From: Opitutales bacterium
GTDB lineage: Bacteria > Verrucomicrobiota > Verrucomicrobiia > Opitutales > Coraliomargaritaceae
Length of the DNA: 55,716 nt
Direction: 5' to 3'
Assembly (NCBI GenBank): GCA_030729385.1
Contig: JANQXM010000063.1
Location: 1 to 55,716, forward strand
Shown: positions 9,208 through 15,483 of the stretch, one piece after another
How the letters are laid out: every line of letters begins with the position of its first letter
Position numbering within the stretch: position 1 is the stretch's first letter
Made by a program: the position numbers and the translations under genes
The notes under the pieces: model-generated
What the model was told of the DNA's origin: nothing
Database searches by the model: none
The model's input: only the letters and a program-made list of their open reading frames with translations

Positions 9208-9517
9208 GTTGCACTATTCGGTAGTTGGCGAACCGCAGACGCGCAAGGGGAATTCAAAGGAATTGTGAGTTGCAAGCTGGCTCTGTAATTTGAAACCACG
9301 AAGGGCACGAAGATCACGAAGGCTATTCAGGCGTATTAATTATTACGCAGAGTTGTTTTATCGGATTCGTGACTATCTGTGTGGCTTCGTGGGAAATTTA
9401 CGTCGTATCAGCTTTGTGGCTCTGCGTCTTGAGTGGCGAAGGAGCGGGCGTGAGCTATCAGAGATTGGTTCTAGGGCTTGCTTCATCTTCGTGTCCTCCG
9501 TGCCCTTCGTGGTTTAA
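9208..9517. repeat. Gene-free gap with CCACGAAGGGCAC-type inverted repeat
   Basis: The 310-base gap holds a 16-base perfect inverted repeat, AAACCACGAAGGGCAC at 9293-9308 and its complement at 9500-9515. Between the arms are further degenerate pieces (ACGAAGATCACGAAGG, GTGGCTTCGTGGG, TTGTGGCTCTGCGTC). A 75-codon open frame across it (9290-9517) is rich in Arg because of the repeat and has no family features, so I do not call it a gene. Repeats of this CACGAAG type are widespread between genes in Verrucomicrobia and Lentisphaerae. Confidence 0.7.
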
Positions 9518-11444: not shown

Positions 11445-11571
11445 ATTTGGTGTGTGGAGACGTGGCCGACTGTGCGATGATTGATTTACAACCGCTGCGC
11501 TAGAGTGCCCTGCGGGCGAGATTAGGGAGGTAAAGATTGCCATGAAATCTCTTGGGGGACAGAAAGGTGTC

Positions 11572-11952
11572 ATGGATGATTACACTGAATTAACCGGAAC
11601 CATAATCGGTGCGGCAATGGAAGTGCACGACTACTGGGGTCCAGGACTTATCGAAAGTATTTATGAGAAAAGCTTACAACATGAGCTTGCGCTACGAAAC
11701 GTTGAGGTAAGGCGTCAGGTCAAGCTTCAGCTCAAATACAAAGATTTAGAATTAGATGACGACTATGCTCTGGACCTAATTGTGGATGGTAAAGTCATCG
11801 TTGAACTAAAAGTCGTGAAAGAACTCGCCCCCATACATGAGGCGCAACTAATGACCTATATGAAGCTAACAGGCTGCAAAGTTGGATTGTTGATTAATTT
11901 CAATGTAATCCGCCTTAAAGAGGGCATCCGGCGACTATCCCTTCCTGAATAA
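11572..11952 (+). CDS. GxxExxY family protein (PD-(D/E)XK nuclease fold)
   Basis: 126 residues. The name-giving motif appears as GPGLIESIYEKSL. YALDLIVDGKVIVELKVVKEL carries the Asp and the ExK pair of the PD-(D/E)XK fold, to which the family has been assigned; its biological role is not established. The C-terminus IEAQLMTYMKL-type helix (here HEAQLMTYMKLTG) and GLLINFNV strand are typical. An upstream ATG at 11542 would add ten residues. I prefer 11572, because AAAGG sits four bases before it and family members begin close to the LTG. Isolated gene downstream of a terminator. Confidence 0.85.
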   Translation: MDDYTELTGTIIGAAMEVHDYWGPGLIESIYEKSLQHELALRNVEVRRQVKLQLKYKDLELDDDYALDLIVDGKVIVELKVVKELAPIHEAQLMTYMKLTGCKVGLLINFNVIRLKEGIRRLSLPE

Positions 11953-12063
11953 CCGTCCTCATCGTCAAAACTTTCCCTCCGAAAACTCCCCTCTCTAGCG
12001 AAGCGGTTGTATCAAATTTAAGATGCAATGGCATTGACTCATGTGGACCCCTTACGGGCGGAG

Positions 12064-12456: not shown

Positions 12457-12565
12457 GAATCACTTATAATGAGATAAGTCTATCTGTCCATTCTTGTGAA
12501 TGTTTTGACCCACGAATGCCGCGTAAGAGCAAATGTCATGATATCTCAAAATTACATAATAACTT

Positions 12566-12572
12566 GTTCGTC
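12566..12572 (+). other. Putative left cassette boundary (R' box GTTCGTC)
   Basis: GTTCGTC here is the exact reverse complement of GACGAAC at 14209-14215, the R'' box of the first attC-like site. In integron cassettes the R'' box at the cassette end must match the R' bases at its own start, because both belong to one attC in the circular form. No attC fold is visible to the left of this box, so this edge may be an attI-like or secondary site. The crossover would be between G12566 and T12567. Confidence 0.55.
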
Positions 12573-12653
12573 CAAAAGCTGCGCTCTCAGCTGTCCTATG
12601 CCCTGTTGAAATATGCACCGCAACTTTCTCTTAGGCGTTGGGTTTATCCATTG

Positions 12654-14120
12654 ATGAAATTCCATCTCTTCACCTTCACCGCTACCCTCTGTGTTACCTC
12701 CTATATTTGCATCGGAGAATTACATGGGCAGTCCAGGAATTCGGAAAAGCAGGGTGGAAACGATTGGTCGGCGGAGGAGTATAGCGGTAGCCGGACTGAA
12801 AAGAATTTGAGAGCTGCTATGACCTCGAAGGGATTCGCTTGGTTGAGTGGTTCCCCAGCGGATAACGAGAAGCTGTCTATTGGCAAAAATGCTCAGTTCT
12901 TCGGCTTCGTCGCCCTTCGTTATCAGAGTGGTCGTGCTGCAAACCGAGGAGCATTGGGGCGGGGATTCTTTGCGATTTCTGATGAGACGCAAAGGGAGAT
13001 TCTGCCCAAAGCTGTCCTCGCTGAGGACGCGCCGCTCAAGAAATGGTGGGAGGTTCGTAAGGAGATATTACGCCTTTTCGAGAACCATCTCTACAACAGC
13101 GAGGAGATTGATGAAAAGTTGGCCTCGGAACTTGGAGTTGAGTGGTCCAAGCTGGGAGCGGCCATTGCGATTCATGAGGCCCGTGGATTTGCTGCTTTGG
13201 AAGACGCACTAAGTGACGAGCAACGGGCACAGCTAAAGGTCTGGCGCGAGAATCCTGAGAAATCACACAAGCTCGGTCAGAAGGGTCAGATTAGGTCGGA
13301 TGATCTGAACCGAGATCAGTTGAAGCAACTGGAGGACCTCTATGCGAAGGCATTTTCCTGGATCACGGGAACTTCGGAAGACAACGAAATCATTCCCTTG
13401 GGGCAGCCCGCCCAGTTTTTCGGCTTTGTCTCCATTCGGCACAAGAGTGGACATGCCGCCAACCGGGGTAAGATTTCCAAATCCTTTCTGGAGATCCTCG
13501 ATCGCGATCAATCGGATATCATTGACCATGCCATTGATGAACAGATGCCGGTAGTGAAGCGCTTTCTTGAGCAGCGTCACCGGTTTCTTGAGGAACTCGC
13601 CTTGCTTCGCACCGAGCCGAACGTATTTGACGAGGATCGTGCAATGGAGCTAGCTGCCAAAATGGGGGAGCTGGAGGTTAAGGCAGGATGGATTGAAGCG
13701 AAAGCCTATCGAAAGATTCGAGAAAGCATGACTGCCGAACAGACGTCCCAAATGATGAAGCTTCGAGGCGATTATGTTTTGGATGAAGCACAGGTTGCTT
13801 TGTTGTCGCCTGAGGAGCGTGGAGCGCAACTTGCTATTCTCTGTGCCGGTTGCCACGGCACACCAGGAAATTATCGCGCGGAGATGATAGGGCCGTCGCT
13901 GGAGGGTGTTTTCGACCGCCCGATCGCCTCACAAGTTGGCTTCCAGTATTCGGACGCCCTGCGGAAGCTCAATGACGGGAAACCTTGGACAGTGGAGAAA
14001 TTGGATGGGTATCTCGCTTCACCGAAAACCTATGCGCAGGGGACCAAGATGGAGTTTCAGGGCTTGCTCAAACCAGCGGACCGAAAAGACCTCATCAACT
14101 ACCTTAAACAGACGCGGTAA
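12654..14120 (+). CDS. Exported c-type cytochrome with a duplicated N-terminal helical domain
   Basis: 488 residues. A signal peptide (MKFHLFTFTATLCVTSYICI) supports ATG 12654 over an upstream frame opening at 12516. Two homologous units follow, about 48-200 and 230-395: each has FAWLSGS/FSWITGT, then DNE, AQFFGFV, a SG(R/H)AANRG block and a long helical part ending with L/MTxEQ-like helices (LSDEQRAQLKVWREN, MTAEQTSQMMKLR) reminiscent of Spy/CpxP. The C-terminal 95 residues are a class I cytochrome c domain: CAGCH, YSDALRKL and the KMEFQG stretch, whose Met may be the distal ligand. Probably periplasmic electron carrier or sensor. I know no named family with this layout. It lies inside a putative integron cassette. 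Confidence 0.75.
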   Translation: MKFHLFTFTATLCVTSYICIGELHGQSRNSEKQGGNDWSAEEYSGSRTEKNLRAAMTSKGFAWLSGSPADNEKLSIGKNAQFFGFVALRYQSGRAANRGALGRGFFAISDETQREILPKAVLAEDAPLKKWWEVRKEILRLFENHLYNSEEIDEKLASELGVEWSKLGAAIAIHEARGFAALEDALSDEQRAQLKVWRENPEKSHKLGQKGQIRSDDLNRDQLKQLEDLYAKAFSWITGTSEDNEIIPLGQPAQFFGFVSIRHKSGHAANRGKISKSFLEILDRDQSDIIDHAIDEQMPVVKRFLEQRHRFLEELALLRTEPNVFDEDRAMELAAKMGELEVKAGWIEAKAYRKIRESMTAEQTSQMMKLRGDYVLDEAQVALLSPEERGAQLAILCAGCHGTPGNYRAEMIGPSLEGVFDRPIASQVGFQYSDALRKLNDGKPWTVEKLDGYLASPKTYAQGTKMEFQGLLKPADRKDLINYLKQTR

Positions 14121-14208
14121 AACGCAATACCTAGTTTGCTCCTAGTTTGCTCCTTGTAATCCAAGATATTGCCACAAGCCCCAAGGCTAAACCGAAACAA
14201 ACAAAGAT

Positions 14209-14267
14209 GACGAACAAGTCGTGGCACATCAACGCGCTACGCGCGTGAGTGCACTCAATCGTTATGT
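14209..14267 (+). other. attC-like recombination site 1
   Basis: Read in order: R'' GACGAAC (14209-14215), 5-base spacer AAGTC, L'' GTGGCAC (14221-14227), a 6-base hairpin ACGCGC-TAC-GCGCGT (14232-14246), L' GTGCAC (14249-14254), 6-base spacer TCAATC, R' GTTATGT (14261-14267). L'' pairs with L' if one G is bulged out, which is the extrahelical base that marks the bottom strand in true attC sites. Spacers of 5 and 6 match the classical aadA attC layout. The AAC and GTT cores are present. Confidence 0.8.
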
Positions 14268-14280
14268 GTCTAAATAAAAT

Positions 14281-14691
14281 ATGATCTCAGTATCTAGTTA
14301 TTGGAAAGATGACCTGCTCAAAATCGCAGGCAGACTTGAGCGTAGATTAATTCAATGCCGGTGGGGAGAGAAGAATATATACACGCTAGAAACGGAAATA
14401 TTTTTAGGATTCTATGCCATCAGGAAGCTAGTCGAATCCAACAAAATATCTGACTCACTGAAAACAAAAAGCATAGACATCAAAGAGTTTCCATATCAGG
14501 GACATCCTGAATCAATTATTACTCACTTTAAAGAAAGTGACTATGATTTTAGTAGAGCTAAGGCCTCTAGAATCACAGTTACCCAACTATGCAATCAGTT
14601 CATCCATAGTCACCATTTCCTACCTTTTTTACCCAATGGTAAAAACTTAATTGGGTTCTTTTTTTGCTCTGATCACAAACGAACGTCTTGA
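14281..14691 (+). CDS. Hypothetical protein in an AT-rich putative integron cassette
   Basis: 136 residues, no family recognised. The start ATG lies 19 bases after the crossover point at G14261/T14262, the usual position of a cassette reading frame, and there is no clear ribosome-binding site. Base composition is visibly more AT-rich than the neighbours. The sequence is mixed alpha/beta with SVSSYWKDDLLKIAGRLERRL at the N-terminus and an aromatic, His-containing segment QFIHSHHFLPFLPNGKNLIG. No signal peptide or membrane helix. The whole unit would be the 607-base cassette 14262-14868. Confidence 0.65.
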   Translation: MISVSSYWKDDLLKIAGRLERRLIQCRWGEKNIYTLETEIFLGFYAIRKLVESNKISDSLKTKSIDIKEFPYQGHPESIITHFKESDYDFSRAKASRITVTQLCNQFIHSHHFLPFLPNGKNLIGFFFCSDHKRTS

Positions 14692-14813
14692 ATATATTTA
14701 ATTACCCTATTTGACATTGCCGGGATCTATCGAGCTGTAGGAAGTAATTATCCCATGAGTATGAGTTCGAGCCGGTTACCAAACGGAAAAACACTAAAAA
14801 CGATCGAATGAAT

Positions 14814-14874
14814 ACATAACCAGTCGATCGTGACAATGTCGCTAACGCGCCATCGTCACATCTCCACGTTCGCA
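14814..14874 (+). other. attC-like recombination site 2
   Basis: R'' ACATAAC (14814-14820), 5-base spacer CAGTC, L'' GATCGTGAC (14826-14834), variable hairpin (14836-14853, pairs ATG/CAT and CGC/GCG), L' GTCACATC (14855-14862), spacer to R' GTTCGCA (14868-14874). L'' and L' pair over eight bases with a single bulged C. R'' is the exact 7-base complement of R' GTTATGT at 14261, as required if 14262-14868 is one cassette. Confidence 0.8.
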
Positions 14875-14880
14875 GGAAAA

Positions 14881-15375
14881 ATGAAAGCCATTGCTATAGT
14901 TCCGCTCCTTTTATTTTTCACGCTGATAGCCAATGCAGATATTCGGGAGGTCGGCTACAAAGTAGGACCACAACTTTTCAGGGCTGGCGACAGCATCGAA
15001 ATTAAAGAAGTGAAGGCTTCATCATCGAGTTTCGAGATTGGTGAGACTGTTACAGTCAGAGGAATCTACACTCTAAAATCTTATCCAGATGCGAAAATAA
15101 GCATTTTTGTCACACAGACCGTAGGCGATGGAAAGAGTGAGGTTTTGCCCGGACAGCAGCTCAGAATAAAAGAAGGGACTGGAGAGTTTGAACTGAGCAT
15201 TGAGATTCGGCATGAAGGATATCTTCACGTCACCTTTTACCCCGCAGATGGAGGCAGTGGATTCGGCGGAGTCTACTTTGGGAAATCTAAGAAGATGGAA
15301 GAAATCAAAGACTGGACACTCGACTGGTATTTGGGCGAGCCGCTACCCGAAGGCAGGTCGGACTCAAACCTGTGA
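14881..15375 (+). CDS. Small secreted hypothetical protein, possible third cassette
   Basis: 164 residues. ATG 14881 is preceded at good distance by AGGAAAA and begins a signal peptide (MKAIAIVPLLLFFTLIANA), so the longer frame from 14830, which runs through attC-like site 2, is rejected. The mature part looks all-beta, with FEIGETVTVRGIYTL, AKISIFVTQT and EFELSIEIRHEGYLHVTFYP, suggesting an Ig-like or C2-like sandwich. No family recognised. The start is only 12 bases after the crossover point of site 2. I found no third attC after its stop, so it may be the last, decayed cassette or simply flanking sequence. Confidence 0.7.
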   Translation: MKAIAIVPLLLFFTLIANADIREVGYKVGPQLFRAGDSIEIKEVKASSSSFEIGETVTVRGIYTLKSYPDAKISIFVTQTVGDGKSEVLPGQQLRIKEGTGEFELSIEIRHEGYLHVTFYPADGGSGFGGVYFGKSKKMEEIKDWTLDWYLGEPLPEGRSDSNL

Positions 15376-15483
15376 CCCAGTCGCGGGAGTATCAGCTGGC
15401 AAAATCCTAGCTGCCAACCTCGCCAGCCTGCCTTTACGTTTTGGGCACTTGCGAAATGTGGATTCCTCGCTTTCTCTCTCGGT

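Follow-up and report, generated by a model that had tools for sequence, protein, structure and literature searches.

A predicted exported cytochrome c with a tandem pair of Spy/CpxP-like units in an Opitutales bacterium

One gene in a 55,716-nucleotide stretch of DNA from a marine Opitutales bacterium (assembly GCA_030729385.1, contig JANQXM010000063.1, positions 1 to 55,716 of the forward strand; hereafter the window) encodes a putative exported heme protein, of probable periplasmic location, in which a duplicated helical front part precedes a cytochrome c domain. We tentatively read this protein, at somewhat below even odds, as a redox-linked, client-binding sensor or chaperone of the periplasm that joins in a single chain a pair of extended Spy/CpxP-type (LTXXQ) units and a class I cytochrome c. 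If the Spy dimer is a guide, the pair would act as a pseudo-dimer that presents one client-binding surface. A subfamily of secreted sulfatases would be the usual partner. A CopRS-like two-component system would join it in many lineages, and the protein would hold this system in check or signal to it, in the manner of CpxP towards CpxA. The heme might either make binding depend on the redox state of the periplasm or pass electrons.

Spy and CpxP are well-studied envelope-stress proteins. With a covalent Spy/CpxP-like pair that carries its own redox centre, one could ask directly if chaperones of this kind react to the redox state of the periplasm. The association with one sulfatase subfamily hints at how marine Verrucomicrobiota may control their secreted sulfatases. 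We found no heme-fused or tandem form of Spy or CpxP in the open-licence full text of PubMed Central; subscription papers may differ.

Layout of the gene and its product

The reading frame at positions 12516-14120 (+) is open throughout and contains in-frame ATG codons at 12516 and at 12654. The second of these, from which the initial annotation had counted, gives a 488-residue product whose start, judged by eye, resembles a signal peptide. The gene is present in a single copy in the window genome, and its features are collected in Table 1.

Table 1. Predicted features of the gene and of the DNA around it (window positions)
Feature	Position	Strand	Basis
Predicted exported tandem Spy/CpxP-like protein with C-terminal cytochrome c, 488 aa	12654..14120	+	ORF, unit self-alignment, Pfam
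Signal-peptide-like N-terminus	12654..12722	+	By eye; AlphaFold2 helix 2-22
Unit 1, residues 46-204: signature part of ~60 residues, then LTxxQ-type helical hairpin	12789..13265	+	Alignment, AlphaFold2
Unit 2, residues 218-380, layout as unit 1	13305..13793	+	Alignment, AlphaFold2
Class I cytochrome c domain, residues 388-487	13815..14114	+	PF00034 above cut-off; PDB sequence matches; Foldseek
CXXCH heme-binding motif, C397-H401	13842..13856	+	Invariant in 28/28 aligned sequences
M466, probable axial ligand	14049..14051	+	Invariant in 28/28 aligned sequences
Insertion relative to two genus-mates	12457..15449		DCC1-like gene and uvrB adjacent in G394 and G395
19-nt upstream element, identical upstream of the G395 copy; overlaps a weak -10-like CATAAT	12554..12572	+	Comparison of G000 with G395
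Candidate attC-like palindromic stretch 3' of the gene	14213..14266	+	Folding z -1.8; no second site in the genome under the search pattern

Aligning unit 1 with unit 2 gave 48 identities (33%) and 82 positives over 145 positions (E 2e-25), and AQFFGFV, DNE and SG(R/H)AANRG are present in both, which confirms the two homologous units of about 150 residues and the shared motifs described in the initial annotation. AlphaFold2 predicted both units to be helical, each with a long hairpin (whole protein, 28 sequences: pLDDT 86.7, pTM 0.83; unit pair alone, 31 sequences: pLDDT 93.3, pTM 0.91). That annotation had also placed one helix resembling the LTxxQ helices of Spy/CpxP at the end of each unit. 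The resemblance is real, as the profile comparisons below show, but each unit has two such sites rather than one: in unit 1 they fall at residues 109-113 and 186-190, and in unit 2 at 282-286 and 359-363. The motifs flank the predicted helices 113-148/154-185 and 284-320/327-358.

Conservation follows the same plan in all 80 units that were aligned (56 of the heme type, 28 each of first and second units, and 24 of heme-free proteins): a front part, KxFxWxTGxxxDxxxxPxGKxxxYFGFxxxR, is followed by a back part whose two ends each have an LTxxQ-like site. Q113 and Q286 are invariant, and Q190 and Q363 occur in at least 90%, of an alignment of 28 sequences comprising the window protein and 27 of the 28 heme-fused loci (L057 was left out here and from alignments A2 and A5). 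Alignment A3, with 26 units and without the double-unit protein G161:C8, has G, F, G, Q, R and Q as its invariant residues. A tree of the units has long branches and was rooted at the midpoint.

At the C-terminus, Cytochrom_C (PF00034) was the only Pfam model over its cut-off in the window protein (31.7 bits against 21.3), and the CXXCH cysteines and histidine (C397, C400 and H401) are as invariant as the probable Met ligand. The best 60 of 103 matches in a PDB sequence search were exclusively cytochromes c, the best among the matches listed being a cytochrome c552 solved with arsenite oxidase, and Foldseek with the whole model gave only cytochrome c among the matches listed. Judged by its CXXCH, Met ligand, fold and sequence, the C-terminal domain is an ordinary class I cytochrome c, in agreement with the initial annotation; it departs from its class in being fused behind a tandem helical, sensor-like region.

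An ordinary cytochrome domain with this best PDB match would suit a plain electron carrier that serves respiration, its helical units being only a spacer or docking platform. We regard such a carrier as very improbable: residues of the units are among the most conserved of the whole protein in the 28-sequence alignment, double-unit proteins without heme exist and have related neighbours, and no respiratory oxidase or reductase was found among the neighbour proteins scanned.

The back part of each unit resembles Spy and CpxP

No Pfam or NCBIfam model was matched over its cut-off by the units of the window protein. Neither the whole protein nor unit 2 alone matched PF07813 (LTXXQ, the family of Spy and CpxP), and NCBIfam returned only sub-threshold cytochrome and CpxP matches. 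Of the heme-fused sequences, 6 of 28 match PF07813 at E<=1 (best 0.0083), and 9 of 26 units do so at E<=0.1. The heme-free relative L024 exceeds the cut-offs both of PF07813 (44.5 bits against 24.3) and of Metal_resist, PF13801 (32.3 bits against 29.2), which we take to be the CnrX type.

Profile comparisons point the same way. Columns 65-157 of the 26-unit profile behave as an LTXXQ (Spy/CpxP/CnrX-like) domain, and hhalign of the unit profile gave 84.4% for CpxP, 76.8% for Spy and 5.9% for ZraP, the last of these being no match. Spy and CpxP were among the best matches of a PDB profile search, though weakly (best Spy E 0.025). Searches by structure can overlook a helical hairpin. With the unit pair, Foldseek returned nothing from the PDB at E<=0.001 and a second look with VIA reached a Z of at most 4.6, neither Spy nor CpxP being among the matches listed; these outcomes fit the presence of a Spy fold as well as its absence.

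We conclude that the back ~90 residues of the unit probably belong with the LTXXQ/Metal_resist group, as distant relations of Spy and CpxP. The earlier statement that the units match no known family is therefore only half right; it holds for the front ~60 residues, with their PxGKxxxYFGF signature, for which no model matched among those used. Like PF07813 domains, each unit has its two LTxxQ-like sites around a helical hairpin, and the profile matches are in register. The present units differ from that family in their ~60 extra conserved front residues, in being paired and fused to cytochrome c, and, for those of the window, in lying below Pfam detection. Spy itself is a cradle-shaped dimer that is inactivated by methionine oxidation (PMC12503329).

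When 387 genomes were searched with the unit profile, 11 genomes beyond those with full-length units matched through columns 65-157 alone (46-154 in one). Ten of their single-LTXXQ proteins were scanned (L121 was left out), and all ten match PF07813 at E<=0.0022, seven of them over the cut-off. The full-length unit matches numbered 32 and were all paired, making up 16 proteins in 13 genomes; the single-unit versions that the initial annotation had envisaged were thus absent from the 387 genomes as far as the full unit is concerned. It appears that the back half of the unit also occurs alone, as ordinary Spy/CpxP-like proteins, and that the full unit is found only doubled. Since the duplication is present in every full-length relative examined, we do not attribute it to chance.

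The overlapping Metal_resist matches in relatives and in the single-LTXXQ proteins raise the possibility, in our view quite improbable, that the units hold a metal ion in the manner of CnrX and that the heme senses or reduces the metal and so feeds the CopRS-like system. The window's own units do not match PF13801, however, and the residues invariant in A3 do not make up a conserved Cys/His/Met site.

Relatives of the protein

Relatives in named genomes emerged with a profile query, which found 28 heme-fused loci; the single window sequence as query had found none. Most of the loci belong to Verrucomicrobiota and Lentisphaerota and include those of Persicirhabdus sediminis, a Pelagicoccus isolate (L065) and Lentisphaera marina. 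Others come from the gammaproteobacterial isolate Catenovulum maritimum, from a Woeseiaceae MAG and from a single short contig that carries the label Chloroflexi, possibly through a binning error. L048 and L057 are from one MAG. In the 387-genome draw of the phylum, which gave 13 genomes with a match, the heme-fused type occurs in five (G000, which is the window genome, G378, G317, G211 and G339), and the other matching genomes encode heme-free proteins. The two samples appear to overlap: L047 (Persicirhabdus) matches G378, L067 (Lentisphaera) G211 and L068 G339. L045 appears to be the genus-mate G395.

Heme-free double-unit genes lie directly 3' of the heme-fused gene at L066, L068 and L069. 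Two further heme-free double-unit proteins (L029 and L031) have a C-terminus that, by eye, resembles a phosphatidylethanolamine-binding protein, and a neighbour protein similar to this part matches PF01161.

A sulfatase subfamily adjoins many of the relatives

In 11 of the 28 heme-type loci the immediate same-strand neighbour of the gene belongs to one sulfatase subfamily, lying upstream in nine and downstream in two. We compared 40 sulfatases, listed from those loci and four others, with the L045 sulfatase as reference. The 12 others that are at least 50% identical to it all directly adjoin a double-unit gene, and the remaining 27 matches are at most 39% identical, suggesting that the linked sulfatases form a distinct subfamily. 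A C-x-P/A-x-R active-site motif was found in 14 of 14 linked sulfatases examined. The window genome has its sulfatase ortholog on another contig (C71, 49% identity). With an ortholog in the 387-genome draw defined by a score above 450 bits (nine genomes; the next score is 384), it is present in four of the five heme-type genomes and in nine of 387 overall, two of the four being of one genus and relatedness being uncorrected.

These neighbours would also fit a protein devoted to the linked sulfatase, whether as its chaperone, as its activator or as its partner in electron transfer. It might, for example, help the active-site cysteine of the sulfatase to mature or act on what the sulfatase produces, and the two-component system would only regulate the operon. 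We consider this reading somewhat doubtful. It gains from the direct adjacency of a distinct subfamily carrying the active-site motif and from the persistence of the ortholog, unlinked, in the window genome and Persicirhabdus, where the kinase described below is absent. It loses from the four of nine ortholog genomes that have no unit match at E<=1e-5 in the 387-genome draw, from the heme-type genome G339, in which no sulfatase ortholog was found, and from the heme-free relatives, which adjoin metallophosphatases or other sulfatases.

The sulfatase and the cytochrome protein co-diverge (r 0.84, 0 of 2000 permutations), and because relatedness was not controlled in this comparison we do not count it as evidence. 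In the window genome the closest relatives of the sulfatase differ from those of the cytochrome gene; as the two genes also lie on separate contigs, they were apparently not inherited there as a pair. At L087 and L088, which have a sulfatase ortholog but no unit protein, the ortholog is accompanied by another sulfatase and by an apparent anti-sigma/sigma factor pair, judged by eye.

A CopRS-like two-component system is linked to part of the relatives

A CopRS-like kinase is encoded within 10 kb of the gene in 11 of the 28 heme-fused loci. Because contig ends truncate some of the loci, the counts for both kinase and sulfatase are lower bounds; of the 12 loci with neither linkage, five are truncated in this way (L046, L051, L061, L063 and L070). 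Kinase and regulator are divergent from the gene at L064, L065, L066 and L068, and the regulator alone is so placed at L069. The same divergent layout is seen in control stretches from E. coli, for cpxP with cpxRA and for zraP with zraSR, which adds to the likeness of some relatives to the LTXXQ family. CpxP restrains its own kinase and is typically encoded divergently from it (PMC12802237). The sensor domains of the kinases are related between heme-type and heme-free loci.

Because of this kinase linkage, the sensor- or chaperone-like role that had been proposed for the front part is plausible. No such kinase was found at E<=1e-20 in the window genome or in Persicirhabdus (G378), and the gene in the window has no divergent two-component operon. 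Unless another kinase serves, control of a kinase would therefore not be the function of the protein in these two genomes. This absence, the unlinked sulfatase in the same genomes and the four sulfatase genomes without a unit protein weigh most heavily against our preferred reading of a redox-linked sensor or chaperone. Also counted against it are the separate inheritance of sulfatase and cytochrome gene in the window genome, the 12 loci with neither linkage and the lack of a Pfam match for the window's units.

The two-component system bears on metal sensing as well. The closest NCBIfam models of the linked kinases and regulators are copper/heavy-metal types (CztRS/SilRS/CopRS; TIGR01386, TIGR01387), and a YHYH protein is encoded nearby in 4 of the 28 loci, both of which speak for a metal sensor. 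The scores nevertheless remain below the cut-offs of these models (225 and 243 bits against 292.6 for kinases, 252 and 214 against 279.2 for regulators), and no metal pump was found among the scanned neighbour proteins of the relatives.

Taking our preferred reading further, the PxGKxxxYFGF-plus-LTXXQ unit could be a new, obligately duplicated domain that marks an as yet unrecognised heme-coupled envelope surveillance system, in which the oxidation state of the cytochrome would gate binding of client or kinase and so tie secreted sulfatase activity to periplasmic redox, the gene being exchanged between marine bacteria. We think this extended proposal unlikely.

Metallophosphatases and arylsulfotransferase-like proteins are also among the relatives' neighbours. 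No paper pairing YHYH and sulfatase was found in open-licence PubMed Central full text. In three MAGs (L050:11565-14867, also L052 and L058) a protein of one neighbour cluster stands beside the gene, and that of L050 combines DUF7133 and ThuA with a cytochrome c of its own. L020:4375-9148 encodes a cytochrome protein of planctomycete type (DUF1592/1588/1587) and a protein with DUF1552, directly upstream of the heme-fused gene.

The window's copy lies in an insertion

The neighbours of the gene in the window encode an FKBP, a PDDEXK_3 protein, a DCC1-like protein and UvrB (uvrB), and include neither a sulfatase nor a two-component system. The DCC1-like gene and uvrB are direct neighbours in two genus-mates, which implies an insertion of about 3 kb in the window. 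G395 has a copy elsewhere in its genome that is 63% identical to the window's, against 92% for uvrB. Given this difference and the absence of the insertion from the genus-mates, the gene was likely exchanged or replaced horizontally between genomes. Within the family of the window genome, the gene occurs in just 2 of 43 genomes.

The initial annotation had suggested an exchanged cassette, and of this the exchange part is upheld. An integron gene cassette is unsupported: the attC-like stretch is alone in the genome, and the IntI integrase model gave only matches below cut-off in the window genome, as it did in 14 of 14 control genomes. A search of the whole window against Rfam gave no match at gathering scores. 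The third-position G+C of the gene is ordinary (0.58); two ORFs behind it in the same insertion (14281-14691 and 14830-15375) have no Pfam match and lower values (0.38 and 0.49).

The 19-nt upstream element may be a promoter or operator shared by the G000 and G395 copies, and a promoter scan at the element and its CATAAT was not above chance. Elsewhere in its own genome the element has one site with two mismatches, at the start of an unrelated ORF. The idea that the unlinked sulfatase has the same operator was rejected, as the element does not occur in L092 within five mismatches.

Two kinds of inverted repeat were noticed upstream in the window. An imperfect CACGAA-type repeat of 29 nt, 90% complementary, occupies 9293-9321 and 9487-9515; a similar CACGAA stretch occurs at the empty DCC1-uvrB junction of G395 (L101), and such repeats may therefore mark insertion points. 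The PDDEXK_3 gene (11542-11952), for which the FKBP-DCC1 interval of G394 and G395 gave no match, is flanked by a 19-nt inverted repeat at 11487-11505 and 11993-12011.
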